The notes under the pieces: model-generated
Databases searched by the model: none
What the model was told of the DNA's origin: nothing
The model's input: the letters and a program-made list of their open reading frames with translations, nothing else
Position numbers and translations under genes: made by a program
From: Hyphomonas jannaschiana VP2
GTDB lineage: Bacteria; Pseudomonadota; Alphaproteobacteria; Caulobacterales; Hyphomonadaceae
Assembly: GCF_000685215.1 (NCBI RefSeq)
Contig: NZ_ARYJ01000008.1
Coordinates: forward strand, 62,001 to 126,000
Reading direction: 5' to 3'
Length of the DNA stretch: 64,000 nucleotides
Shown here: positions 17,511 through 36,365 of the stretch, piece by piece
How positions within the stretch are numbered: position 1 is the stretch's first letter
How the letters are laid out: each line of letters starts with the position of its first letter

Positions 17511-18080
17511 TTAAAGATCCTGCTGTGCAATGTCGACAATAAGGACATTCTGAATTCCTGTTGGCACCGCCTTTTGCAGGTTCATCAGAACCATGGCGCG
17601 GATGGTCTCATAGCTTTCAACATCAGTGATGTTCTCAAAAGTCCGGTCATCATTGCTGAGTTCAATCAGCGTTGTCATGATGTTGTCCCGGATCTTGGGC
17701 TCCATGGAAAACAGCTTCTGGGAAATGCTCGAGTCTGCTTCCAGGTTGATATTCAGAATGACGAGGCTCTCAACCTTCCGGTCATGCATGACCGGGACGA
17801 TAAACTCACGCGTGAACTTGAAGTAGACGACCCCTCCGGCCGCAGTATCGCTGCCATGGCCACCGCCTCCATGACCGGAAGTCTCCTTTTTTGCGCCGTG
17901 AGACTCTTTCTTCTCACTGCCATGGCTATCCGCTGCCCCGTGTCCCCCATCAGACTTTGAGGATGCCTCATGGGCGCTCGGACTGGCCGCTGCCGACAGA
18001 CCCGTCTTAACAAAATGTCCGGTAATGCCGCCGATCAGAATGCATACGACCGCGACCACTGCAGAGATGACATGCTTCAT
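17511..18080 (-). CDS. FliL-like basal-body protein with His/Gly-rich linker
   Basis: A 189-residue protein with one N-terminal membrane anchor (MKHVISAVVAVVCILIGGITGHFV), a periplasmic linker of about 50 residues containing six His among Gly, Ser and Lys, and a FliL-type domain (REFIVPVMHDRKVESLVILNINLEAD, IRDNIMTTLIELSNDD). FliL proteins ring the stator and support torque or surface sensing. It is last in the operon fliM-like-motA-helical repeat-flgF-flgG-flgA-flgH, which supports a stator or ring role. A second FliL lies at 34721-35245. Confidence 0.65.
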   Translation of the reverse strand: MKHVISAVVAVVCILIGGITGHFVKTGLSAAASPSAHEASSKSDGGHGAADSHGSEKKESHGAKKETSGHGGGGHGSDTAAGGVVYFKFTREFIVPVMHDRKVESLVILNINLEADSSISQKLFSMEPKIRDNIMTTLIELSNDDRTFENITDVESYETIRAMVLMNLQKAVPTGIQNVLIVDIAQQDL

Positions 18081-20027: not shown

Positions 20028-20765
20028 TTATCCGTTGCGTACTGCGCTGATGATCTTGCTGATGCGCTGATCTTCGCGTTCAAAAAGGGCTTGTCCGGCC
20101 TCATAGGCGCGCTGCACTTCAATCATGCGCGCGACCTCCAGCACTGGAGAAACATTCGACTGCTCAAGCGCGCCCTGAACGATTTCATTGTTCTCTGCCG
20201 GCCTGTGGCCATCGGGTGCGGAAAAATAGGAATTGGAATCGCGGACTAAAGTCGCTTCCTGATCGACAGTCACAATGCCCACCTGCCCGACTTCCTGGGG
20301 TGGGAGGCCATCGCCTGCGCTGATCGTGATCGTGCCATCCGAAGCAATGCGAACCTGACTGGCATTCGGGGGGATATTGATCGGCGCGCCCCCCGCATTG
20401 AGGACCGGGCTGCCATTCATGTCCACCAGTTGGCCATCAGCGGACAGCTGGAAATGACCGGCGCGGGTCAGGCGCTGCCCTTGCTCTGTATTGACCAGGA
20501 AAAACCCGTCGCCCTGGATCGCCAGGTCCAGTTCCCCGCCGGTGATTTTCAGCGCCCCCTGCTCCATGGCAAAGCTGTGCCCAGCCAATCCGCCCATCGA
20601 CAGGGAAGAGGATTGAGATCCGGTTGCGACAAGAAACTCGCCAAAGAGCGCGCGGTCGGATTTATACCCGGTCGTGCTGGAGTTGGCGATGTTATTCGCC
20701 ACCACCTGCATTTCCTGCATCAGGCCCTGTTGACGGCCAAGCATAGCGTAAATAGCGCTCGACAT
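20028..20765 (-). CDS. flgF: Rod protein FlgF
   Basis: A 245-residue rod protein with the axial N-terminal motif (VVANNIANSSTTGYKSDRALF), the central ELDLAIQGDGFFLVNTEQGQRLTRAGHFQLSADG and the C-terminal EVARMIEVQRAYEAGQALFEREDQRI. It joins the proximal and distal rod. Its start codon overlaps the stop of the upstream helical-repeat gene by one base (TGATG), so these two unlike proteins are translationally coupled. Confidence 0.95.
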   Translation of the reverse strand: MSSAIYAMLGRQQGLMQEMQVVANNIANSSTTGYKSDRALFGEFLVATGSQSSSLSMGGLAGHSFAMEQGALKITGGELDLAIQGDGFFLVNTEQGQRLTRAGHFQLSADGQLVDMNGSPVLNAGGAPINIPPNASQVRIASDGTITISAGDGLPPQEVGQVGIVTVDQEATLVRDSNSYFSAPDGHRPAENNEIVQGALEQSNVSPVLEVARMIEVQRAYEAGQALFEREDQRISKIISAVRNG

Positions 20766-22513
20766 CAGTGCGCTCCTCCGGTGACCTGTTCTGAAGGCTG
20801 TCCAAGGACGGACGAAACCTGTCCCATGGCGAGCTTCGACTTTCTGGGCTTAGCCAACTCCCGGGCTGAGGAGCGCATCGCAAACACCCGGTCCGCTCGC
20901 TGTCTCAGGAGGGGGTCTTCCAGGGCTGCCGCCGCCGCATAGATTTCATCCGAGACAATCCACCGATTTGTCGCGGCATCCAGTTCGATCAGTGACAAGA
21001 CAGCTTCCGGGTCCATCTCCATCCGGTCTTCATAAATACGAAGACCAACCAGGTTGCCCTGCCGGATCGCACTTTGCGCGGCGAGGAGGTTGAGTGGTGC
21101 ATTTTCCGGATAAGCCTGAGCCCAATTGGTGACCGCATCATAGTCCCCCGCGCGGAACTCCAACCGTGCGAGCTCTGCGATCACGGCATCATCCGTTTCG
21201 TCCTGCTTCATCAACACACGCGTCATGGATACGAGACCGAACCGAACCGACAAGGATGCCCCGGACCGGTAAAGCTTTGTCCGCTCTGGAGCCGATGCCA
21301 AAATCCCCGGGTCCGAGACGAGTGCATTTAGCGCGGCAAGGTTCCGAAGCCGGTTATCGCTGGTCAAATCCCGTTCCAACCCTTTGATGAACTGGCGCCG
21401 GATTTCTTTTTGCGCTGGCTCATTCTGAAGTGCCGGCATGCCAGCGAGCTCCATTATCGGCTGATAGTTGGAGCTGCCACTCAGTTCCTGCAACGCATAC
21501 TGAAGGCTAGCGGCCAGCGCCCGGTCATCTCCTGTCTGGCCGAACTTCTTCATCAGTTCGCCCATCAGGATTTCTTCCTGCACGCTGTTCAGCGGTTTGC
21601 CATGCCGCATAAGGACGGCAAGCGCCTGCTCCTGGAATTGCGGTTCACTGAGAAATCTCCGCAAGTTCTTTTCCGCGTCGGGCCGTTGCTCCCCAAGGTC
21701 GATAATGGACTTCGCGAACTGCAATTGTGTTGTGTCAGAAATCTGGGCGGGTGTGAAATCCGCGAGGAGTTTCACAGGCAGAATACGTTCACCGCGCCTG
21801 TCCAGCTCCGGCACAACCATGGCGGTCAGATCGGCGCGCAAGCGAAACGGCAACTTGCGGAAGGCATTGATGCTCTCACCGAAGACGTCCACGCCCGCAT
21901 CACGATCGCTTGCCAGCAGTGCAGCGCCATACCAGATTCCCGCTTCTTCCCGGCACTCAGCGAGCTTTTGGAAGTAATCCACATCCACAGCGGTCCGGTT
22001 TTCCATCAGGCGGCTGACCTTCAGGTACGCGGTCGCCACAGGTCCGGGCGTAGATTTCAAAACCATACCAGCTTCGGAGTAGAGTCCGAGCGCGAGGTAG
22101 GCTTTGGCGAGCTCAACCCCAGCAAGTTCCTCACCTTGCCCGGGCTGCTGGCGGGCCTTCTCCTGAAAGGTGTAGATTTGCTGATAACGGTCAAACGCTT
22201 CGAATTCACCAAAGTCGAGGGGGTTTTGGCCATCGCAGTCCACCTCGACAGGAAACGGCGCTGCCTGGCGCGGCCTTACGCCGGCAGGCAGACCAGGACG
22301 ATCGGCAACCATTTCTTCCGGCGCGGCATCTACGTCCCCGGCCGGGGTCAGCAATCCCTCATCGATAGCATCGCGAACAAACTGATCCAGCTCATTCGCC
22401 AGCTGGACCGGCTTACCTTCTTCTACTTTGGACTCAGCTGTTGCGCCTTCCTGCGCCAGCGAAGCCGGCGCAAGGAGACAGCCAAGAAGCAGAAGGAGGG
22501 CAAATCGCGTCAT
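20765..22513 (-). CDS. Large periplasmic helical-repeat protein of the motor operon (MotC-like candidate)
   Basis: A 582-residue protein not assignable to a named family from sequence alone. It has a clear signal peptide (MTRFALLLLLGCLLAPASLAQ, cleavage after ASLA) and no further membrane segment. Most of the mature chain is alpha-helical with TPR-like features, such as ELAGVELAKAYLALGLYSEAGMVLKS, LARLEFRAGDYDAVTNWAQAYPENAPLNLLAAQSAIRQGN. It overlaps motA by 4 bp and flgF by 1 bp. Rhizobial MotC is a periplasmic motility protein linked to the stator genes; this could be a functional counterpart, which the MotE-like gene at 35745-36365 supports. It could also help the rod or P/L rings. Confidence 0.55.
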   Translation of the reverse strand: MTRFALLLLLGCLLAPASLAQEGATAESKVEEGKPVQLANELDQFVRDAIDEGLLTPAGDVDAAPEEMVADRPGLPAGVRPRQAAPFPVEVDCDGQNPLDFGEFEAFDRYQQIYTFQEKARQQPGQGEELAGVELAKAYLALGLYSEAGMVLKSTPGPVATAYLKVSRLMENRTAVDVDYFQKLAECREEAGIWYGAALLASDRDAGVDVFGESINAFRKLPFRLRADLTAMVVPELDRRGERILPVKLLADFTPAQISDTTQLQFAKSIIDLGEQRPDAEKNLRRFLSEPQFQEQALAVLMRHGKPLNSVQEEILMGELMKKFGQTGDDRALAASLQYALQELSGSSNYQPIMELAGMPALQNEPAQKEIRRQFIKGLERDLTSDNRLRNLAALNALVSDPGILASAPERTKLYRSGASLSVRFGLVSMTRVLMKQDETDDAVIAELARLEFRAGDYDAVTNWAQAYPENAPLNLLAAQSAIRQGNLVGLRIYEDRMEMDPEAVLSLIELDAATNRWIVSDEIYAAAAALEDPLLRQRADRVFAMRSSARELAKPRKSKLAMGQVSSVLGQPSEQVTGGAH

Positions 22514-23376
22514 GCCGCTTTTTTCAGCTCCCGAATTGCCTGTTCCACATCATCGAAACTCGGACGCACCCGGGCCGGGGCATGGCGGCGGGCAACCTCG
22601 ACCGAAATATTCACCGGGTTGTGGTGCAGATTCGACACAAGAAGACCGCCAATGGTGGCATAGAAGAAATGCTCTTCAGTCCGATTGTGCTTCACCTTGT
22701 TTGCAAACGGCCCCACGATACCGTAGGCGAGAAACACGCCAAGAAATGTTCCGACGAGAGCGCCGCCGATCATCCCACCCAGAATTTCCGGTGGCTTATC
22801 GATTGCGGCCATCGTTTTGATGACCCCCAGAACGGCGGCGACAATGCCAAGGGCCGGCAAGGCATCAGCCATATTCTGCAAGGCATGCGCGCCGTGCAGG
22901 CTGTCTTCCTGCAAGCCTTCCAGCTGCGCTTCGAGGAGTTCCTCAACCTGATGAACATTGTCGAAGTTCATGATCATTGAACGGATCGTATCGCAGATCA
23001 TTTCGACCGCCGCATGGTCCTTAAGGATCTTCGGATACTTGGCAAAAATGTCAGACTCGTTCGGCGCTTCAATATGTGGTTCGATGTCGACCGGGTTTTG
23101 CTTGAGCACATTCAGCAGCTCATGCATCAGGCAAAGCAGATCCTGATAGTCCTGCTTTTTCCATTTCGGTCCCTTGAACACGGAGACGATGTCACCGACC
23201 GTATGCTTGATCGTCGTCAGGTCGTTGGCCGCCAGAAAGGCGCCGATCGCCGCACCACCGATCATCATGCCCTCAAACGGGAGCGCATGCGTGATGATTT
23301 CCATTTTGCCGCCAGCCAACAGATAACCGCCAAAAACCATGGCAACTGTCACCAGCATCCCAATAATTGCGTTCAC
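22510..23376 (-). CDS. motA: Stator protein MotA
   Basis: A 288-residue H+-type stator subunit with four membrane segments. The conserved parts are VTVAMVFGGYLLAGGKM, FEGMMIGGAAIGAFLAAN, the cytoplasmic loop (residues about 70-175), ALPALGIVAAVLGVIKTMA with the functional Pro, and GTFLGVFLAYGIVGPFANK. MotA couples ion flow to FliG. Unusually, motA is followed by a periplasmic repeat protein and the rod genes, while motB is on the opposite strand across the fliM-like gene. Confidence 0.96.
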   Translation of the reverse strand: MNAIIGMLVTVAMVFGGYLLAGGKMEIITHALPFEGMMIGGAAIGAFLAANDLTTIKHTVGDIVSVFKGPKWKKQDYQDLLCLMHELLNVLKQNPVDIEPHIEAPNESDIFAKYPKILKDHAAVEMICDTIRSMIMNFDNVHQVEELLEAQLEGLQEDSLHGAHALQNMADALPALGIVAAVLGVIKTMAAIDKPPEILGGMIGGALVGTFLGVFLAYGIVGPFANKVKHNRTEEHFFYATIGGLLVSNLHHNPVNISVEVARRHAPARVRPSFDDVEQAIRELKKAA

Positions 23377-23416: not shown

Positions 23417-24310
23417 CTAAGAATCCACGATTTCCTGCGCAAAATTTTCCGAAATTGGTGTTGTCAGCTTCAGCGCTCGCTGCCGCTTCCAGACCCCCAG
23501 TTCGCCCGAACCTATATCGACGCACCCATTCAACGTATCCGCTGACAAGGACAACTTGCCTGCGTCCGCTCCGGACAGCGGCAGCACAGTGCCGACTTCA
23601 AGCTTGGCGCACTCACCGATTGTCAGGGACAATCGGTCCAGAACGGCATCCAGGGTGGTCGTGGACGCCAGCACGCTGTCGCTGAGCGATTTACGGCTGT
23701 GATGACGGGCCTGGGCTTTATTATCGGCCGCGTCGCGCAAGCTTGATGCGATAAATTTCTGCAAATAATCAAAGGCAAATACGAACCAGACCCGGGTGAC
23801 ATCTTCATTCAGCTGCAGCTTGTATTCAATGAGCAGATAGCGGTTTGCCGCGCTGAAACTGCCAGCCGCCCCTGCCGAGTCGGCCGTCGAAGCTACCCCC
23901 TGCTCTATCCTGAACAGGCCCGCCGAGACGGATTGGGCCAGATCGAGGCCAGCCTGTTCGGCCAGCAACTTGAGAAACAGGGGCGAAGCATCAGCAAGGC
24001 TGTCGACGTCCTGGTCCATGCGGACCGCAGCATTACGGACAGCGCCGGCAGAATCCAACGCAAGGCCAGCAAGCCCTGGCGACAGATTGGCAGAGAAAAA
24101 GAATCCGGCTTCCTGGTCCAGCGTCTGCCGCGCTTCAACGCCACTGACAGTACGCCGGCTGGCGAGCGTAATATCCGGCTGAATTCCATAAGTGTCTGCC
24201 GCCCACTCACGGGTACAGGTCTGCAACTTCAGCCAGAATGACTGCAGCCGCAGCATGCTGGGTGGAATACCTGCCCCAGCTTCTATCTTTTTCCGCAGAA
24301 CTGCAGACAC
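23417..24310 (-). CDS. Divergent FliM-type switch protein with C-terminal SPOA domain
   Basis: A 297-residue protein whose C-terminal part (about 220-285: LDRLSLTIGECAKLEVGTVLPL, LSADTLNGCVDIGSGELGVWKRQRALKL) is a FliM/FliN SPOA domain; the remainder has the size of the FliM middle domain. I see no N-terminal CheY-binding motif of the LSQDEIDALL type and no GGxG FliG-binding loop. The GTG at 24310 is preferred because AGGTGG lies upstream; the ATG at 24406 lies in a TTAACCAT motif. It starts the operon that continues with motA, 40 bp downstream. No other FliM is in the window. Confidence 0.65.
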   Translation of the reverse strand: MSAVLRKKIEAGAGIPPSMLRLQSFWLKLQTCTREWAADTYGIQPDITLASRRTVSGVEARQTLDQEAGFFFSANLSPGLAGLALDSAGAVRNAAVRMDQDVDSLADASPLFLKLLAEQAGLDLAQSVSAGLFRIEQGVASTADSAGAAGSFSAANRYLLIEYKLQLNEDVTRVWFVFAFDYLQKFIASSLRDAADNKAQARHHSRKSLSDSVLASTTTLDAVLDRLSLTIGECAKLEVGTVLPLSGADAGKLSLSADTLNGCVDIGSGELGVWKRQRALKLTTPISENFAQEIVDS

Positions 24311-24473
24311 AGTTTGCCACCTATTAAAAAAACGTACCGTCCCGTTAACCAGTGATGGTCGGTGACCGGTTGAAAAACCATTAACGAGGCGGGGCAAGTT
24401 AACCATCGCCTCCGCAGCGTTCCTTCACAGCTGTCTGTTAGAGAATGCCCACTGCCTCAAATGGTTAGGGTTA
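24311..24473. promoter_or_regulatory. Divergent fliM-like/motB control region with TTAACC motifs
   Basis: Holds TTAACCAG at about 24345-24352, ATTAACG at about 24380-24386, the exact 8-mer TTAACCAT at about 24399-24406 and ATGGTTAG..GTTAATGG shortly before motB. TTAACCAT is an alphaproteobacterial CtrA-associated motif. This is the densest cluster in the window and probably controls both divergent motor operons. Confidence 0.45.
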
Positions 24474-25286
24474 ATGGGTACTAAGCAACAACCAGTCGTC
24501 CACACGACAATCATCAAGCGGAAGAAGGTCGTTAAAGCCGACGGACACCATGGTGGTGCCTGGAAGGTTGCCTATGCCGACTTCGTGACCGCGATGATGG
24601 CGTTCTTCCTTCTGATGTGGCTCCTCAACGCCACGACAGAGGAACAGCGCAAGGGTATTGCAGACTATTTCAACCCGACCATTCCGATCAGCCGCATCTC
24701 TGGCGGCGGCTCCGATGGGCTGAATGGTTCATCCATTTTCACCGAAGAAACCTACGCGAAGATGGGCACAGGCGCATCGCGCTCGAAATCCATCGACTCG
24801 CACGGGTCAAAGGACAAAACAGACGAGCGTGCGATCACTGCGCAACTGGAAGATCTCAAAAAAGGTCTCACCGAAGACGGACACCAGATTTCGGAACACA
24901 TGCTGATCAAGATGTCCCCGGAAGGAATCGTGGTGGAAATCACGGACTCTGCGCAGACTCCCCTCTTCCCGGTCGGGTCGAGTTACCCTTCCGAACTTCT
25001 GGCCGACCTGATGAGTCAGGTCGCAGGCTCGTTCGGCAGCTTTGAAAACCAGGTTAAGATCGTCGGACATACAGATAACCGCACCTACCGGAACGCCGCA
25101 GTCTACGATAACTGGAACCTGTCGGCAGATCGCGCCAACACAGCACGCCGCCTGCTGGTTCGTTCCGGTATGCCGGCTGATCGGATCCGCGAAGTGTCAG
25201 GCAAGGCGGACTCCGAACCCCTGATCCCGGACGATCCGTCCGCACCTCAGAACAGGCGAATCTCGATTACCATCCTGACCCAATAA
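24474..25286 (+). CDS. motB: Stator protein MotB
   Basis: A 270-residue stator subunit. A short basic cytoplasmic N-terminus (IIKRKKVVK) precedes a single membrane helix with the ion-binding Asp36 (YADFVTAMMAFFLLMWLLN). The plug/linker and an OmpA-like peptidoglycan-binding domain follow (VKIVGHTDN, WNLSADRANTARRLLVRSGMPADRIREVSGKADSEPL, NRRISITIL). The strand divergence from motA, with the fliM-like gene between them, is unusual. The hook gene flgE lies 82 bp downstream and may be read through. Confidence 0.96.
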   Translation: MGTKQQPVVHTTIIKRKKVVKADGHHGGAWKVAYADFVTAMMAFFLLMWLLNATTEEQRKGIADYFNPTIPISRISGGGSDGLNGSSIFTEETYAKMGTGASRSKSIDSHGSKDKTDERAITAQLEDLKKGLTEDGHQISEHMLIKMSPEGIVVEITDSAQTPLFPVGSSYPSELLADLMSQVAGSFGSFENQVKIVGHTDNRTYRNAAVYDNWNLSADRANTARRLLVRSGMPADRIREVSGKADSEPLIPDDPSAPQNRRISITILTQ

Positions 25287-30273: not shown

Positions 30274-31386
30274 TCAGGCGTTTTCCTCGGCGTTGCGCTC
30301 AAGGACGATCAGTCCGCGGCGCTTGAGGCCCATCAGCACATTTAGAAACTCGCGCTGCACCTGCTCCACGGCTTCCGGAGCCATTGGCTTCATGGTCCCC
30401 AGATCGTCGCGGTACTGGTCTGCCATACGCGATGAAATATTGCCGAGCAGGTAATCGGATACGGCGCTATTGCCGCCCTGCAACGTGCTCAGGAGTTTCA
30501 GCAGGAAGGATTGGTCGACCTCGCGGAATACGACCGGAACCGCATTTTTCGGAAGAAGGTCCGGCAAGCCTTCGATTGTAAAGATCGACTTTTCGATGCC
30601 TTCGAGTTTGTCCTCATGCTTGGCCCGGAGGAAAGCCACCAGGCTGTCACGCTTCTCGGTCGAGATGAGGCTCAGCAACTCTCCAACCGAAGCCAGGTTG
30701 TTGCCTTCATCTGCATCCTCTTCCTGCACAGCATTCAGGAATTCCATCTCGACCATCCGGCCAAGTACCTGGTCGACACCCGGGTCTGTCTTGCGTGGCT
30801 CAACCATGTGCCCGATCATCGGCCCGAGTTTTTCGCCTTCCATATGCCCCAGGATTTCGGAGGAAACTGACACATCCAGTTTCTGGAGGATCAAGGCAAT
30901 GAGGTTGGGCGACAGACGCGACAGATAGGTGGCAATCTGCTTGGGGTCCTTTCGCTCCAGACGCTCCCAGACGCTTAGTTCCTCATCGTCCTCATCGCCG
31001 ACCGTATCCGGCTGATCTTCCTTAAACAACAGGTTCAGGCGGCCGGAATCGACGACACCAGACAAAACTTCTTTCGCCCGGGTACGTCCACCACGCAGCG
31101 CACCATTGGTTTTGCGAAGGTGAGCAATGAAGTCCATGACGATCTCTATGAGCTCGTCACGGGTCAGCATGGAGAGATTTTCGAGCGCGGTGGCGACTTT
31201 GGCTAGCGCCGCATCGTCGAGCTTTTCGACAATCGGCTTCGCAGCGCTCTCCCCCAGCAGGGCAATGATCACGGCAGCGCGCTGGGCCGAGCTTATCGGT
31301 GCGGGCTGAGGCACGACAGCAGCCATCTTCTGCGCGCGCCGCGCTGGCAGGCTTTCAACGTTTGAGGCGGGACGGGCTGAGCTCAT
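30274..31386 (-). CDS. fliG: Motor switch protein FliG, with altered FliM-binding motif
   Basis: A 370-residue rotor protein. The N-terminal domain (AQRAAVIIALLGESAAKPIVEKLDDAALAKVATALE), middle domain and C-terminal torque domain (SLLKLLSTLQ-type, SRMADQYRDDLGTMKPM with conserved charged residues) are present. The middle-domain motif usually EHPQ is KDPK at residues 146-149. That motif contacts the GGxG loop of FliM, which is also missing in the FliM-like protein here. An acidic insert (DTVGDEDDEELS) precedes it. It overlaps fliP (ATGA) in the operon fliF-fliH-fliN-fliP-fliG. Confidence 0.92.
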   Translation of the reverse strand: MSSARPASNVESLPARRAQKMAAVVPQPAPISSAQRAAVIIALLGESAAKPIVEKLDDAALAKVATALENLSMLTRDELIEIVMDFIAHLRKTNGALRGGRTRAKEVLSGVVDSGRLNLLFKEDQPDTVGDEDDEELSVWERLERKDPKQIATYLSRLSPNLIALILQKLDVSVSSEILGHMEGEKLGPMIGHMVEPRKTDPGVDQVLGRMVEMEFLNAVQEEDADEGNNLASVGELLSLISTEKRDSLVAFLRAKHEDKLEGIEKSIFTIEGLPDLLPKNAVPVVFREVDQSFLLKLLSTLQGGNSAVSDYLLGNISSRMADQYRDDLGTMKPMAPEAVEQVQREFLNVLMGLKRRGLIVLERNAEENA

Positions 31387-32168
31387 CCTGCATATCCGCG
31401 CAAAATGGCTTCCGTAATCTTAAGCCAGCCATCCGCCAGCACAAAAAAACCGAGCTTGAACGGCAGGGACACCACGGTGGGCGGAACCATCATCATGCCA
31501 ACCGCCATCAGGACAGAGGCAACCACAAGGTCGATCACCATGAAGGGCAGGAAAATCACGAAGCCGATCTGAAATGCATGCTTGACTTCCGACAGCATGA
31601 AGCCGGTCGCAAGCAGCGGGAACGAAGGTGCCTCCCCTTCTGCCAGCGGCCGGTTCAGGGCATCGCTGAGGACGAAAAGTGTTTCCGGCTCGGTGCGGCT
31701 CGTCATGAAGGTCCGGAACGGGTCAGTGGTCATCACCCAGGCCTGTTCCTCTGTCAGCACGCCATCCATGTAGGGGGAGATGCCACTGTCCCAGGCATCG
31801 GTGAAAACCGGCTCCATGACGAAGAATGTCAGGAACATGGCCAGCGCCATGATCATCATGTTGGGCGGGGCCTGAGGGACGCCGATCGCCTGGCGCATAA
31901 ACGAGAACACGATGACCATGAACGGCAAACAGGTCACCATCATGGCGATGGCCGGAACCAGACTGAGCACAGAGACCAGCAGGAACAGCTGAATGACCGA
32001 CCGGCTGAGCCCCCCCTGCCCGTTTCCGTTCAGGACATCATTCAGACTCGGCACCGGGTCCAGCGCCGGCGCACCCTGTGCATGCGCGGCGAACCCAAGG
32101 CTCGCCGCGGCAATCAGGATAAGAATGCTGAAGCGGAGGAAACCTCCCCCGGCCTTAGCCAAGATCAT
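31383..32168 (-). CDS. fliP: Flagellar export gate protein FliP
   Basis: A 261-residue membrane protein with signal-like N-terminus and four membrane segments, the core of the FliPQR export pore. It shows the family blocks SLVPAIAMMVTCLPFMVIVFSFMRQAIGVPQAPPNMMIMALAMFLTFFVMEPV and the C-terminal FLPFMVIDLVVASVLMAVGMMMVPPTVVSLPFKLGFFVLADGW. The start overlaps fliN by 14 bp and the end overlaps fliG by 4 bp, so translation is probably coupled. Confidence 0.95.
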   Translation of the reverse strand: MILAKAGGGFLRFSILILIAAASLGFAAHAQGAPALDPVPSLNDVLNGNGQGGLSRSVIQLFLLVSVLSLVPAIAMMVTCLPFMVIVFSFMRQAIGVPQAPPNMMIMALAMFLTFFVMEPVFTDAWDSGISPYMDGVLTEEQAWVMTTDPFRTFMTSRTEPETLFVLSDALNRPLAEGEAPSFPLLATGFMLSEVKHAFQIGFVIFLPFMVIDLVVASVLMAVGMMMVPPTVVSLPFKLGFFVLADGWLKITEAILRGYAG

Positions 32169-32478
32169 CGTAGGATTGCTCCGGTATCTCCGTGATTTTC
32201 ACGCCCAGGGAACCGTCCTCGGTCTCAACCAGTTCGCCTTTGGCAATGATCTTGTTGTCGATGGTCAGATCGACAGGGTCCTCAATCCGGGAGGTCAGCG
32301 GCACGATGGATTCGGGCTGCAGCTCAAGGATCTCCGACACGCTCAACCGGGCCTGCCCGATCGAGACCGTCACGGTGACCGGAACACTGAAAATGGTCCG
32401 GCGGTGCTGGTTCGCCGATGAAGGATCCCGACGTTCGACATCGGCAGGCTTGGGTTCGGCTTCCATAGGGGCGGCCAT
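32155..32478 (-). CDS. fliN: Motor switch protein FliN
   Basis: A 107-residue protein with a charged N-terminal tail and a single SPOA domain (VPVTVTVSIGQARLSVSEILELQPESIVPL, DLTIDNKIIAKGELVETEDGSLGVKITEI). It forms the bottom of the C ring and docks FliH-FliI. The ATG at 32478 is preferred because GAGGAG precedes it at 7 nt; this Shine-Dalgarno lies in the last codons of fliH. Confidence 0.92.
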   Translation of the reverse strand: MAAPMEAEPKPADVERRDPSSANQHRRTIFSVPVTVTVSIGQARLSVSEILELQPESIVPLTSRIEDPVDLTIDNKIIAKGELVETEDGSLGVKITEIPEQSYDDLG

Positions 32479-32482
32479 GCGT

Positions 32483-33088
32483 CTACTCCTCAATCATCGT
32501 GTGGGAGGGGTCCAGGTGGCTCAGACAAGCAGCCAGCAACCCCTCAAAATCAAACGTTACACCGCCGGTCTGCCAGGAAACCTGCACGCGGGGCTCATCC
32601 GCGGTCGCCGCAGGTGTCATCTTGCAGCGCTCTGAAAGTGACGGATCATGCGCGATAAACGGTTCCAGCCTGTTCAACACTTCCTGCCGCGCACGGATCT
32701 CGATAGATGGCACAGATGCCGGAATGAGTTGCGGAAGATGCTGAGCGATCTCGGCAGCCAGGAAGCGTTGGGAAAGTTCCGGAAACAGCCGGGCCGCAAG
32801 CGCCTGGGTGACCTGCATCGCTTGGTCACGCGCCTCGTTCTCGATACGGCCCAATACGGCAGAAAGCTGCCCGGCGAGGCTCTCAATTTCGGCAAGCGAA
32901 GGGCCGAGGTCGACCGGCTCAGGCGATTGCACTTCTTCCTCGACTGATTCACCCGTGGGTTCAGGAGCCGGTTTCGTCCGTGCAGCCGCTTCCTGCATCT
33001 GCCCCAGCATACGCTTCAGCTGTTCGGCCGGATGCGTCTGATCTCCCTGGTCGAACCGAGGGAGGTTGGAAAGCAGAGCACTACTCAT
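32483..33088 (-). CDS. fliH: FliH-type export ATPase regulator (FlbE-like)
   Basis: A 201-residue protein between fliF and fliN, the usual place of fliH (called flbE in Caulobacter). A Pro/Glu-rich N-terminal region is followed by a helix (IESLAGQLSAVLGRIENEARDQAMQVTQALAARLFPELSQRF) and a C-terminal domain ending WQTGGVTFDFEGLLAACLSHLDP. FliH stalks bind the FliI ATPase and dock on FliN. Sequence conservation in this family is low; position and overall pattern give the call. It overlaps fliF by 8 bp. Confidence 0.75.
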   Translation of the reverse strand: MSSALLSNLPRFDQGDQTHPAEQLKRMLGQMQEAAARTKPAPEPTGESVEEEVQSPEPVDLGPSLAEIESLAGQLSAVLGRIENEARDQAMQVTQALAARLFPELSQRFLAAEIAQHLPQLIPASVPSIEIRARQEVLNRLEPFIAHDPSLSERCKMTPAATADEPRVQVSWQTGGVTFDFEGLLAACLSHLDPSHTMIEE

Positions 33089-34592
33089 TAACGGCGACCT
33101 TCCGGTCTTCGCTCAGCCATTCCTGCAGGATCGCAGCGGCGTCATCCTGACGTTCGGTCGCGTAGTCCTTCAGGGAGACGAAGGGATCGGCCGCAATCGC
33201 GTCGAGGCTACCTGGCTCGTCATCGTCAAGCGCAAGTGCCCCGGTCTTTGGCTGTTTGAGCATCGGCCGGATCACGCCCAGCGCAAGCACAATGACCACG
33301 AGGCCAAGCACCAGGATCTGGATACCGGACCAGAAATACCGCTCCATCAGCTGATCCATCATGCTCGGTGCAGCGACAAGGTCTTCGACCGGAGCTGCCT
33401 GGAACGGCATGAATTCGACCGTCAGATTGTCTCCCCTGCCCTGATCGAGACCTACAGCAGACATTACCAGCTGACGGAAATTGGCGACCATTTCATCATT
33501 AACCGATGCAGCATCCGGCGCAGCCGGATCCAGACCAAGCACCTGGTCGTTGACGAGGACAGCAACGGAGATCCGCTCGACCTGTCCGGGCAGACGTTCG
33601 GTTTCGGTCCGTGTTTCATTGATCTCGTAAGAGACCGACTCCGACGAATTCTTGACAGAGCTATTGCTCTGGCTACCGGCAGGCGCAGCGCCCTGAGGCA
33701 GGTTGCTGGAAACCGTCAACGCGCCTGATGTTCCGCCGCTGGTTTCCGCCACATCCCCAGTTGTCCGGCTACGGACAACCCGGGAATCGGGATCATAGGT
33801 CACCGCAGATGTGCGCTGACGCTCATGGCTGACGTCTACGGAAACCGAGACACGCGCGTTTCCGGGTCCCACACGCGCTTCCAGCAGGCGCAGGATCTTC
33901 TGCTCGAGCTGCGCTTCCTGTGTTTCGGCTTTGACGCCCGCTTGTTCTGCGTTGGCAACACCGGGACCGGCAAGAATGCCCTTGTTGAGGTCGATCACGG
34001 CCACTTCGTCCGGGCTCAGGCCTGAAACAGCCAGCGCCACCAAGTACTGAATGCCCTGCGCTTGGCTGTTCGTCAGGTCGTGTGCGGAAGAGAGCGTAAC
34101 AGATGCCGTTTGGGCCGGGTCGGAACGGGCAAAGCCGGATCTGAGGCTCGCCCCGATATGGACCCGCGCAGACTGGATGCCGGGGACCGCCAGGATGGTG
34201 CGGGTCAACTCCCCCTCTTTCGCGCGCCAGTAAGCGGCGTTGTACATTTCGGAAGTCACCGAAAAACCGTTTACATTGTCCAGCAGCTCATACCCCTGAA
34301 CCGACTGCTTCGGTAGTCCGTCCCGGGCCAGCGCAAAGCGAACTGAGTCGCGATCATTCTGAGGCACCAGGATGGCATCCCCTTTGATCTCGTACCTGGT
34401 TCCGCGCTTGTCGAGTTCATCGATGATTTCGCCGGTCACCGAGGCATCAAGGCCCGAATACAGCAGGCTCATCGGCTGTTTCATCGCCCCCTGGATCATG
34501 ACGCTCATGATGCCGACGACCCCCAGAACGGCGACAGCCAGCATGATTTGCCGGCTGACGGGCAGGGCTCGGAGATTGGCGATAAAACTCAT
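33081..34592 (-). CDS. fliF: MS-ring protein FliF
   Basis: A 503-residue inner-membrane ring protein, first gene of fliF-fliH-fliN-fliP-fliG. Two membrane segments flank the periplasmic part, one near 17-35 and one near 425-445. The YscJ/FliF domain contains MSLLYSGLDASVTGEIIDELDKRGTRYEIKGDAILVP and RTILAVPGIQSARVHI. The cytoplasmic C-terminus (DYATERQDDAAAILQEWLSED) is the FliG-binding helix pair. The upstream region is shared with fliL. Confidence 0.96.
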   Translation of the reverse strand: MSFIANLRALPVSRQIMLAVAVLGVVGIMSVMIQGAMKQPMSLLYSGLDASVTGEIIDELDKRGTRYEIKGDAILVPQNDRDSVRFALARDGLPKQSVQGYELLDNVNGFSVTSEMYNAAYWRAKEGELTRTILAVPGIQSARVHIGASLRSGFARSDPAQTASVTLSSAHDLTNSQAQGIQYLVALAVSGLSPDEVAVIDLNKGILAGPGVANAEQAGVKAETQEAQLEQKILRLLEARVGPGNARVSVSVDVSHERQRTSAVTYDPDSRVVRSRTTGDVAETSGGTSGALTVSSNLPQGAAPAGSQSNSSVKNSSESVSYEINETRTETERLPGQVERISVAVLVNDQVLGLDPAAPDAASVNDEMVANFRQLVMSAVGLDQGRGDNLTVEFMPFQAAPVEDLVAAPSMMDQLMERYFWSGIQILVLGLVVIVLALGVIRPMLKQPKTGALALDDDEPGSLDAIAADPFVSLKDYATERQDDAAAILQEWLSEDRKVAVNE

Positions 34593-34720: not shown

Positions 34721-35245
34721 ATGGCTAAAAAAGGTGCTGCGAAAGCTGGCGAACAAGCTGCGGACGGCGGCGATGGGACCAGCAAGAAGAAGTCGGGCGG
34801 CGGGTTCGTCGGCCTGGCGATTCTTGCTGTGGGCGCAATGACAAGCTCGTTTGCAACCGTTTATGTCCTTGCATCCGACCCGCCGACGGGGCCGGCCTGC
34901 CCGGCGCCGGAAGCAGGCCCGGCCGTCGAGCCCATTGCCCAGAAAGACCAGGCCTATGTCGAGCTGCAGGACATTCTCATTACAATCGGCAGCGAGCCGG
35001 CGACGCGATACCTGAAAATGAAAGTCTCCATCGTCACCGACAATGAAGGCTCTGCCATGGTTGAGAAAGCCGAACCGGTGCTGATCGACGCATTTACCAA
35101 CTACCTGCGTTCGGTCGAACTCAGCGATTTCGAGAATCCGGATTTTTACGCCCATATGCGCGAACAGCTGAGCCGGCGGTCGGAACTTGTGCTCGGCGGC
35201 GGCGTCTCCCAGGGCGTCCTGATTACAGAATTCCTGTTGAGGTGA
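34721..35245 (+). CDS. fliL: Flagellar basal-body protein FliL
   Basis: A 174-residue protein with a basic, Lys/Gly-rich cytoplasmic N-terminus, one membrane helix (FVGLAILAVGAMTSSFATVYVLA) and a periplasmic FliL domain (AYVELQDILITIGSEPATRYLKMKVSIVTDNE, LLIDAFTNYLRSVEL-type, QGVLITEFLLR). FliL associates with the stator at the MS ring. In many alphaproteobacteria fliL precedes fliM; here it is followed instead by DUF6468-like and MotE-like genes. The ATG is preferred to a TTG three bases upstream. Confidence 0.85.
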   Translation: MAKKGAAKAGEQAADGGDGTSKKKSGGGFVGLAILAVGAMTSSFATVYVLASDPPTGPACPAPEAGPAVEPIAQKDQAYVELQDILITIGSEPATRYLKMKVSIVTDNEGSAMVEKAEPVLIDAFTNYLRSVELSDFENPDFYAHMREQLSRRSELVLGGGVSQGVLITEFLLR

Positions 35246-35250
35246 GCCCC

Positions 35251-35715
35251 ATGCAAATTCAAGCCACCGACATCGCCATCATTCTCGTGTCCTTCGCAGC
35301 CTGCGTGTACTGTTTCGTTCTGAATCGCCGCCTGAAGGCCCTCCAGGACACACGTGACGGCCTCGGCGCCACCATTATGGCGATGTCAAAATCCATTGCT
35401 GCGATGTCCAATTCGACCAGGGAAACCCGCTCGCATGTCGGCGAGATGGCGGCGCGCCTGGCAACCCAGCTGGAAGATGCAAAACAAACCTGCGCCCGGA
35501 TGGAAGAGCTGAAAGCCTCCCTTGAAGCGTCGCAGAAGGATGCCGTCGATCAGGTCACGGCTTCTCAGGCAGAGCTCAGCACGATGATGCGGATCATCCT
35601 GGATCAGTCCAAGACACGCATTATGGAAATGAACCGCGTCATGCATGACATGCGCGAAATGACCGAAGCTGCCGACGAAGATTATCGCCCTCTCGCCCAG
35701 ACCACCGGGCGCTGA
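35251..35715 (+). CDS. DUF6468-like membrane-anchored coiled-coil protein
   Basis: A 154-residue protein with one N-terminal membrane helix (IAIILVSFAACVYCFVLNRRL) and a long cytoplasmic or periplasmic coiled coil (LATQLEDAKQTCARMEELKASLEASQKDAVDQV). Proteins of this layout (DUF6468) are common beside fliL in alphaproteobacterial flagellar regions; no function is known. The ATG at 35251 is 5 nt after GAGGTGAG; a GTG at 35242 that overlaps the fliL stop is the alternative. It lies between fliL and the MotE-like gene. Confidence 0.6.
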   Translation: MQIQATDIAIILVSFAACVYCFVLNRRLKALQDTRDGLGATIMAMSKSIAAMSNSTRETRSHVGEMAARLATQLEDAKQTCARMEELKASLEASQKDAVDQVTASQAELSTMMRIILDQSKTRIMEMNRVMHDMREMTEAADEDYRPLAQTTGR

Positions 35716-35744
35716 CCCGCAGAAAACGAAACTGGTTGCCTGCC

Positions 35745-36365
35745 ATGAAATCGCTCAACAACAGCCGATCCTACGTCCTGCTCACCCTCGGGTTCCTGTT
35801 TACTCTGGGAGCCGCCGTAAGATTCCTGCCGAGCAATCTGGCCATAGCGGAAAGCCCTCAGACGCCTGCACATCCCGCCGAAGCGGAGGATCATTCACCT
35901 TCTGCAGAGGCATCATTGCCGAACACAAAACAGGTCGATCAGGTCTGCTTTACCGCAGAAACGGCCGCGCTTCTGGCGGATGATCAGCGAAAGCTGAAAG
36001 AACAGCAGGCCGCTCTGCAGGAACTGGAACTGGAACTGCTCGCCCGGCAACAGGAACTTGACCGGCGCGCAGCAGACCTGCAGGCGGTGGAAGCCACCCT
36101 GCAGGACCGTTGGGTCCAGCTTCAGGATGTTTCCAATGACGACATGGAACACTTGGCACGCATGTACGGCACAATGAAACCGGATCAGGCGGCTTCAATC
36201 TTCAACCAGATGGATTCCGATTTCGCGGCCGGCTTCCTGCGCCTGATGCGGTCCGAACAGGCCGGCATGATTCTCGCGGGCATGGAAACCAAGAAGGCCT
36301 ATGCCGTCAGCCTCCGTCTTGCTGCCCTGAACGAAGACGTCCGGAACTCCACAAAAGCAGAATAA
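35745..36365 (+). CDS. MotE-like protein (MgtE-N-type domain)
   Basis: A 206-residue protein with an N-terminal membrane anchor or signal (YVLLTLGFLFTLGAAVRFL), a coiled coil at about 75-120 (RKLKEQQAALQELELELLARQQELDRRAADLQ) and a C-terminal MgtE-N-like module (LARMYGTMKPDQAASIFNQMDSDFAAGFLRLMRSEQAGMIL). This matches the MotE family; rhizobial MotE is a periplasmic chaperone for the motility protein MotC. It is third in fliL-DUF6468-motE. Its presence suggests a MotC-like client, perhaps the protein at 20765-22513. The start is the ATG at 35745; a TTG nine bases upstream is possible. Confidence 0.7.
   Translation: MKSLNNSRSYVLLTLGFLFTLGAAVRFLPSNLAIAESPQTPAHPAEAEDHSPSAEASLPNTKQVDQVCFTAETAALLADDQRKLKEQQAALQELELELLARQQELDRRAADLQAVEATLQDRWVQLQDVSNDDMEHLARMYGTMKPDQAASIFNQMDSDFAAGFLRLMRSEQAGMILAGMETKKAYAVSLRLAALNEDVRNSTKAE

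Follow-up and report, generated by a model that had tools for sequence, protein, structure and literature searches.

The contact between the EHPQ motif of FliG and the GGxG loop of FliM is regarded as a conserved hub that carries CheY binding to the torque helix. The locus described here raises the question of whether a flagellar motor can lose both halves of this contact, and whether the two losses are linked. The window analyzed is a 64,000-nucleotide stretch of a Hyphomonas jannaschiana VP2 contig that contains a fliG gene and a fliM-like gene. From the sequence alone, the original prediction held that EHPQ had been replaced by KDPK in this FliG, that the FliM-like protein showed a matching loss of GGxG, and that the two partners had co-evolved, perhaps in a whole lineage.

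The EHPQ site of FliG

The fliG gene (30274..31386, minus strand) encodes a 370-residue motor switch protein of the fla1 clade. All three of its domains were matched over the Pfam cut-offs (FliG_N 58.7, FliG_M 44.9 and FliG_C 69.4 bits), its score of 98.4 bits against the NCBIfam equivalog TIGR00207 is under the cut-off of 226.7, and its AF2 model has a pLDDT of 77.8. In published accounts of studied motors, it is the EHPQ and GGXG motifs that make the FliG–FliM contact (PMC4642947, PMC7355467). KDPK does occupy residues 146-149 (30940..30951, minus strand), but reading it as the replacement of EHPQ put it in the wrong register. In a phmmer alignment with T. maritima FliG (1lkv/4fhr), KDPKQ pairs with tDPVQ and SRLSPN pairs with QSEHPQ, and a MAFFT alignment with E. 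coli FliG places MEPQ over KDPK and EHPQ over LSPN. The VIA-align structural alignment, in which residues 145-218 of the FliG model correspond to residues 113-186 of 3soh_B (74 aligned residues), agrees with this register at the level of ranges, not of single residues. KDPK is therefore the counterpart of DPxQ/MEPQ, and the true equivalent of EHPQ is LSPN, residues 158-161 (30904..30915, minus strand). In the AF2 model LSPN forms the turn entering helix 160-169, and KDPK lies at the opposite end of helix 148-155. No EHPQ motif was found in the FliG_M domain by the two sequence alignments and the structural alignment; EHPQ has been lost from this FliG, as predicted, with LSPN in its place.

Conservation was assessed at both sites in 48 Hyphomonadaceae FliGs. 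N161, the last residue of LSPN, is asparagine in all 48. At the KDPK site, position 146 has K in 7 FliGs and R in 29, an acidic D or E follows at 147 in 42, proline at 148 is shared by 38, and lysine at 149 by 20.

The altered form of the EHPQ column extends well beyond this genome. Among 49 named related loci (L107-L155), 47 carry [LM][STP][PA]N, distributed as LTPN (23), LSPN (14), LTAN (4), LPPN (3) and MTPN (3). The remaining two, with QRPQ and QRPE, come from one Parvularculaceae MAG and one Robiginitomaculum MAG. These 49 belong to 58 loci fetched with a FliG alignment; the other nine are eight Rhodobacteraceae, assigned by title or genus, and one Oscillospiraceae MAG, which has EHPQ. 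Rhodobacteraceae FliGs of the fla1 type differ from the L[STP]PN of the window's family, with ES[TVI]E in seven of the eight loci and EDTK in one. A plasmid search with the window FliG returned 41 records, each below 60% identity, and one with the window FliM returned no matches; a Rhodobacteraceae FliM matched one plasmid record at 31%. No title or abstract in the literature searched, which covered few subscription papers, describes a change at both sites.

A divergent FliM partner

The fliM-like gene (23417..24406, minus strand) was recognized by a PF01052 match, its FliM fold and homologue alignment. Its start is uncertain, lying either at ATG 24406 or near GTG 24310, where the homologues start. 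PF01052 is its sole Pfam match (27.8 bits), and its 21.1 bits against TIGR01397 fall below the cut-off of 219.6. The PF02154 profile found no match in the window's own genome, this protein included. In the 41 genomes searched with that profile, it matched none of the 25 from the genus (the own genome among them), compared with 14 of the 16 from other families of the order. Two Rhodobacteraceae FliMs that were scanned likewise lack PF02154. In a class-wide search, a FliM profile had matches in 31 of 289 genomes, full-length only in two of the window's genus and partial and C-terminal in the rest.

In an AF2 model built from 46 sequences, the middle domain scores mostly pLDDT 85-96 per ten-residue block, with one block at 62. 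This model aligns with 3soh_A and 4fhr_A, the FliMs of solved FliG–FliM complexes, with a VIA Z of 15.5 and an rmsd of 3.3 over 176 and 172 residues at 10% identity, and it matches both Salmonella FliM domains (the CheC-like middle domain and the C-terminal SpoA domain). By fold, synteny and tree the window protein is a divergent FliM; by the curated models it is not a member of the family.

At the place of GGxG, AF2 secondary structure and alignment put a loop of reduced length, spanning residues 99-109 in the numbering from GTG 24310 (23984..24016, minus strand). The conserved segment at the GG-equivalent position is RMDQD, residues 97-101 (24008..24022, minus strand), which reads R-[LM]-x-Q-D in the family. 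Its DQ closes helix 87-98, in the place of the canonical GG, and by the same alignment and secondary structure neither a GG doublet nor GGxG is present at the equivalent position. The loop to the next helix measures about 11 residues in the model, compared with about 17 in E. coli as read off its sequence. Across 44 FliMs of the Hyphomonadaceae, position 97 (R97) has arginine in 41 and lysine in the other 3, Q100 is shared by 38, and D101 by 29.

The N-terminus differs as well. The CheY-binding peptide of FliM has the form LSQxEIDALL, and a peptide of this type was found in E. coli FliM. In the window FliM the acidic peptide is absent, even with ATG 24406 as start, and VLRKKI is found there instead, within a conserved basic segment, SAVLRKKIE (24281..24307, minus strand), that homologue alignments place where canonical FliM has LSQAEIDALL. 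The regular expression for the peptide also fails on some canonical FliMs whose N-termini are extended or variant; its absence in other families was therefore not counted. Starts with a similar LRRK occur in several relatives outside Hyphomonadaceae, resembling the basic S-x-V-L-R-K-K-I start of the window FliM.

Pairing of the FliG and FliM sites

Absence of a literal GGxG says little by itself, because 62 of the 67 alphaproteobacterial FliMs whose partner FliG is canonical also lack it, mostly having GGRRG; only five carry it. The literal motif was dropped as a criterion for this reason and the GG doublet was used instead. By this comparison of sequences, a missing GGxG is in itself nothing unusual for the class; it is loss of the doublet that is unusual. 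The predicted absence of GGxG thus stands, and extends to GG at the equivalent position, but it does not serve as a change matching that in FliG.

With the doublet as the measure, the 80 genomes from which a single FliG and a single FliM were fetched were concordant throughout: 67 have E[HYN]PQ with GG, 13 have neither, and none is discordant. This set is non-random, combining best-scoring canonical matches with deliberately picked deviants, and the pairing is assumed, since many of the genomes hold further FliG_M matches. Rows were aligned with insertions stripped. Five of 85 genomes were left out, three in which FliG or FliM had multiple rows (G040, G097 and G161), one with a wrong FliM ORF (G084) and one whose FliM belonged to another set (G036). 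A 274-residue ORF in one locus (L381), aligned as a FliG with MKPK, was rejected as a MotE-like protein; the real second FliG there has EYPQ. Canonical alphaproteobacterial pairs (EYPQ with LLGGRRG) belong to the same protein families and to a neighbouring clade, and they keep both E[HY]PQ and the doublet.

A second flagellar set

The genome also holds a second flagellar set on other contigs (C4 and C1), with a 310-residue FliG carrying EHAQ, a FliN, and, on a separate contig, a FliM with LSAAEIEALL and CGGNG. A gene for an FlhF-like GTPase adjoins the second-set FliN. Seven Hyphomonadaceae genomes, this one and six reached via the named loci (G326-G331), have four SpoA proteins each. Their second-set FliG/FliM pairs are EHAQ/CGGNG, EHAQ/CGGNG, EHAQ/CGGGG, ERAA/CGG, EHPQ/CGGKP, EHPQ/CGALS and ESPQ/CGARG. 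Under strict labels five of the seven are discordant, namely this genome and two relatives with EHAQ and GG, the ERAA pair with CGG and the EHPQ pair with CGA. The two second-set sites thus vary loosely, which speaks against tight FliG–FliM coupling.

Origin of the altered sites

The trees were quick ones with SH-aLRT support only and long branches, so that the placement of single long rows is unsure. In the FliG tree (77 rows, motif columns removed), 35 altered first-set FliGs form one clade with an SH-aLRT of 100. The clade comprises the window FliG and other Hyphomonadaceae, Parvularculaceae-like rows, Rhodobacterales with three genomes that group with them, other relatives and one ERPQ form. 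The only altered sites outside it are those of the second Hyphomonadaceae set (EHAQ, ERAA, ESPQ). In the FliM tree (53 rows) the matching FliMs are grouped, 24 rows with a support of 88 and 22 of these with 95. Here, in contrast to the FliG tree, the neighbours of the altered group are the second-set FliMs and two GGSG FliMs (87).

Labels were assigned to 74 of the 77 FliG rows, with the GG state entered by hand and three rows without a paired FliM (L033, L162, L163) left out. Thirty-five rows are canonical with GG, 33 have neither, five are non-canonical with GG, and one is canonical without GG. Six rows are thus discordant by strict labels, five of them within the seven second-set rows. On the FliG tree each trait, the FliG site and the doublet, requires four changes. 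The test for coevolution had three independent pairs and gave a sign-test p of 1; fewer than six pairs cannot reach 0.05, so the test was powerless. With a single origin there is no statistical evidence for coevolution, and the first-set association appears to reflect one inherited event followed by divergence rather than proven coevolution.

These results separate the parts of the original prediction. Both partner sites are changed and the change is common to a whole lineage. That the two co-evolved was not demonstrated; the doublet agrees with the FliG site across the 80 chosen genomes, and in the second set the two sites do not track each other.

Two members of the first-set clade deserve mention. 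One (L030/L213) combines QRPQ with FGGEF. Another (L277), a basal branch of that clade, has ERPQ in an open frame of 628 residues; with six SpoA proteins and an LLGHAG-bearing FliM in its genome, it may represent an intermediate.

A fla1-type gene cluster

The fla1-type cluster of Rhodobacterales is described as motBflgEKLI opposed to fliFHNP (PMC11974857), and the window has this order, with motB-flgE-flgK-flgL-flgI opposed to fliF-fliH-fliN-fliP. Here motB (24474..25286, plus strand; MotB_plug and OmpA) is divergent from fliM, and motA (22510..23376, minus strand; TIGR03818 over cut-off) lies directly downstream of fliM. The fliN of the same set as the window fliG (32155..32493, minus strand) has a FliMN_C match of 69.8 bits, and fliF (33081..34592, minus strand) has a Pfam match and exceeds the TIGR00206 cut-off. 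Like motB, fliF and fliN, the genes flgE, flgI and fliP were identified by matches, flgK over its cut-off and flgL by weaker ones; fliH was assigned by its position and 15 bits, with no Pfam match.

The likeness to the Rhodobacterales fla1-type flagellum, as in P. inhibens, extends from gene order to the FliG clade and to a FliM without the GG doublet. This flagellum, which appears to correspond to Fla2 of Cereibacter sphaeroides, is described as swimming, and fliG transposon mutants as immotile (PMC11974857). The two systems differ in that fliG and fliM of C. sphaeroides are reported outside the cluster (PMC7277832), whereas those of the window are inside it. The idea that CP1 of P. inhibens is the FliM missing from the published gene list was dropped as the less probable one, because two Rhodobacteraceae FliM loci (L195, L197) adjoin a histidine kinase, not flbT/flaF, and because fliM of the C. 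sphaeroides system is reported elsewhere on the chromosome (PMC7277832).

Several further genes of the cluster may have fla1 counterparts. Two FliL-domain proteins are encoded in it (34721-35242 and 17514-18080). After the former fliL come a DUF948/DUF6468-like protein (35242-35712) and an MgtE_N/MotE-like protein (35736-36362), possible counterparts of CP2 and CP3. A 582-residue TPR-like protein (20765-22513; weak match) directly after motA is a possible counterpart of CP4/MotK of Rhodobacterales.

A probable variant contact and its alternatives

Like the FliG_M–FliM_M complexes of T. maritima and H. pylori (3soh, 4fhr, 4qrm, 4fq0), the window pair has both folds, with LSPN as the structural equivalent of EHPQ. 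Unlike them, it has LSPN itself in place of EHPQ, a shorter RMDQD loop in place of the GG loop, and a FliM of about 10% identity. We think it probable that this is a real, lineage-wide variant of the C-ring contact in the fla1-type flagellum of a Hyphomonas-like bacterium. FliM, with its fold kept, most likely still uses the usual faces to dock on the middle domain of FliG, and the loops differ: FliG has [LM][STP]PN where EHPQ would be, and FliM has the shortened R-[LM]-x-Q loop where the GG-containing loop would be. LSPN and RMDQD may then touch. The change would have arisen once, in the common ancestor of the FliG clade, and then diverged by family: Rhodobacterales mostly show ES[TVI]E with a single G, Parvularculaceae-like bacteria QRP[QE], and Hyphomonadaceae L[ST]PN with the shortened loop. 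Counting against this reading are the loose pairing in the second set, the clade member that joins QRPQ to FGGEF, and a FliM tree that only partly mirrors the FliG tree.

Purifying selection acts on both genes. In comparisons with two relatives, FliG has dN of 0.02 and 0.07 and dS of 0.54 and 1.56 (dN/dS about 0.04), and FliM has dN of 0.05 and 0.19 and dS of 0.53 and 1.23 (dN/dS 0.10-0.15), two of these four dS values being greater than 1. From this selection, the fla1-type gene order and the published swimming of this flagellar type, we infer that the motor works and that its FliG–FliM contact is of a different kind. It is very improbable that the set is degenerate and non-functional, with its changes the decay of genes that lie beside a second flagellar set, even though the genome does hold a second FliG, FliM and FliN. 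Ratios well below 1 argue against decay, as do the immotile fliG mutants of the swimming Rhodobacterales flagellum. Of the 25 genomes of the genus, 23 have a window-type fliG match without stops and 23 have a FliM match of the window type; three of the FliM matches (G012, G015, G021) have in-frame stops and retain open frames of 300, 300 and 305 residues from the conserved start.

A different possibility is that docking is ordinary, relying on the other conserved surfaces of the two proteins, and that a single founder change was followed by drift of the EHPQ and GG loops, which would then make no new specific contact. Retention of both folds at such low FliM identity, the single origin in the first set, and the ability of the sites to vary separately in the second set would all fit, and this account has a real though minor chance of being correct. 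The invariant N161 of FliG and the strongly conserved R97 and Q100 of FliM argue against pure drift. The shorter loop without GG could also mean that the contact between the two middle domains is gone and that FliM is held elsewhere, for example by the FliG ARM-C or by FliN; this is improbable, as FliG_M is retained and the FliM middle domain retains the fold of solved FliG-bound FliMs.

The variant contact may be part of a larger change. Tentatively, and with rather low confidence, the C-ring of the whole fla1 clade can be viewed as a rewired switch, in which basic VLR[RK]K replaces the acidic CheY-binding peptide and both halves of EHPQ–GGxG are replaced, such that signal entry and its transmission to FliG would be unlike those of every structurally studied motor. 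CheY and FliM sets of R. sphaeroides were reportedly treated by del Campo in 2007. Fla2 of C. sphaeroides is described as responding to CheY1, CheY2 and CheY5 (PMC7277832).

A large lineage with motile members lacking both halves would show that the EHPQ–GGxG hub is replaceable. The natural variants E[HY]PQ, ERPQ, QRPQ, ES.E and L[ST]PN offer material for testing which features of the contact switching needs. The variant contact also fits with the FliMs of this lineage escaping PF02154, and annotation may miss them.
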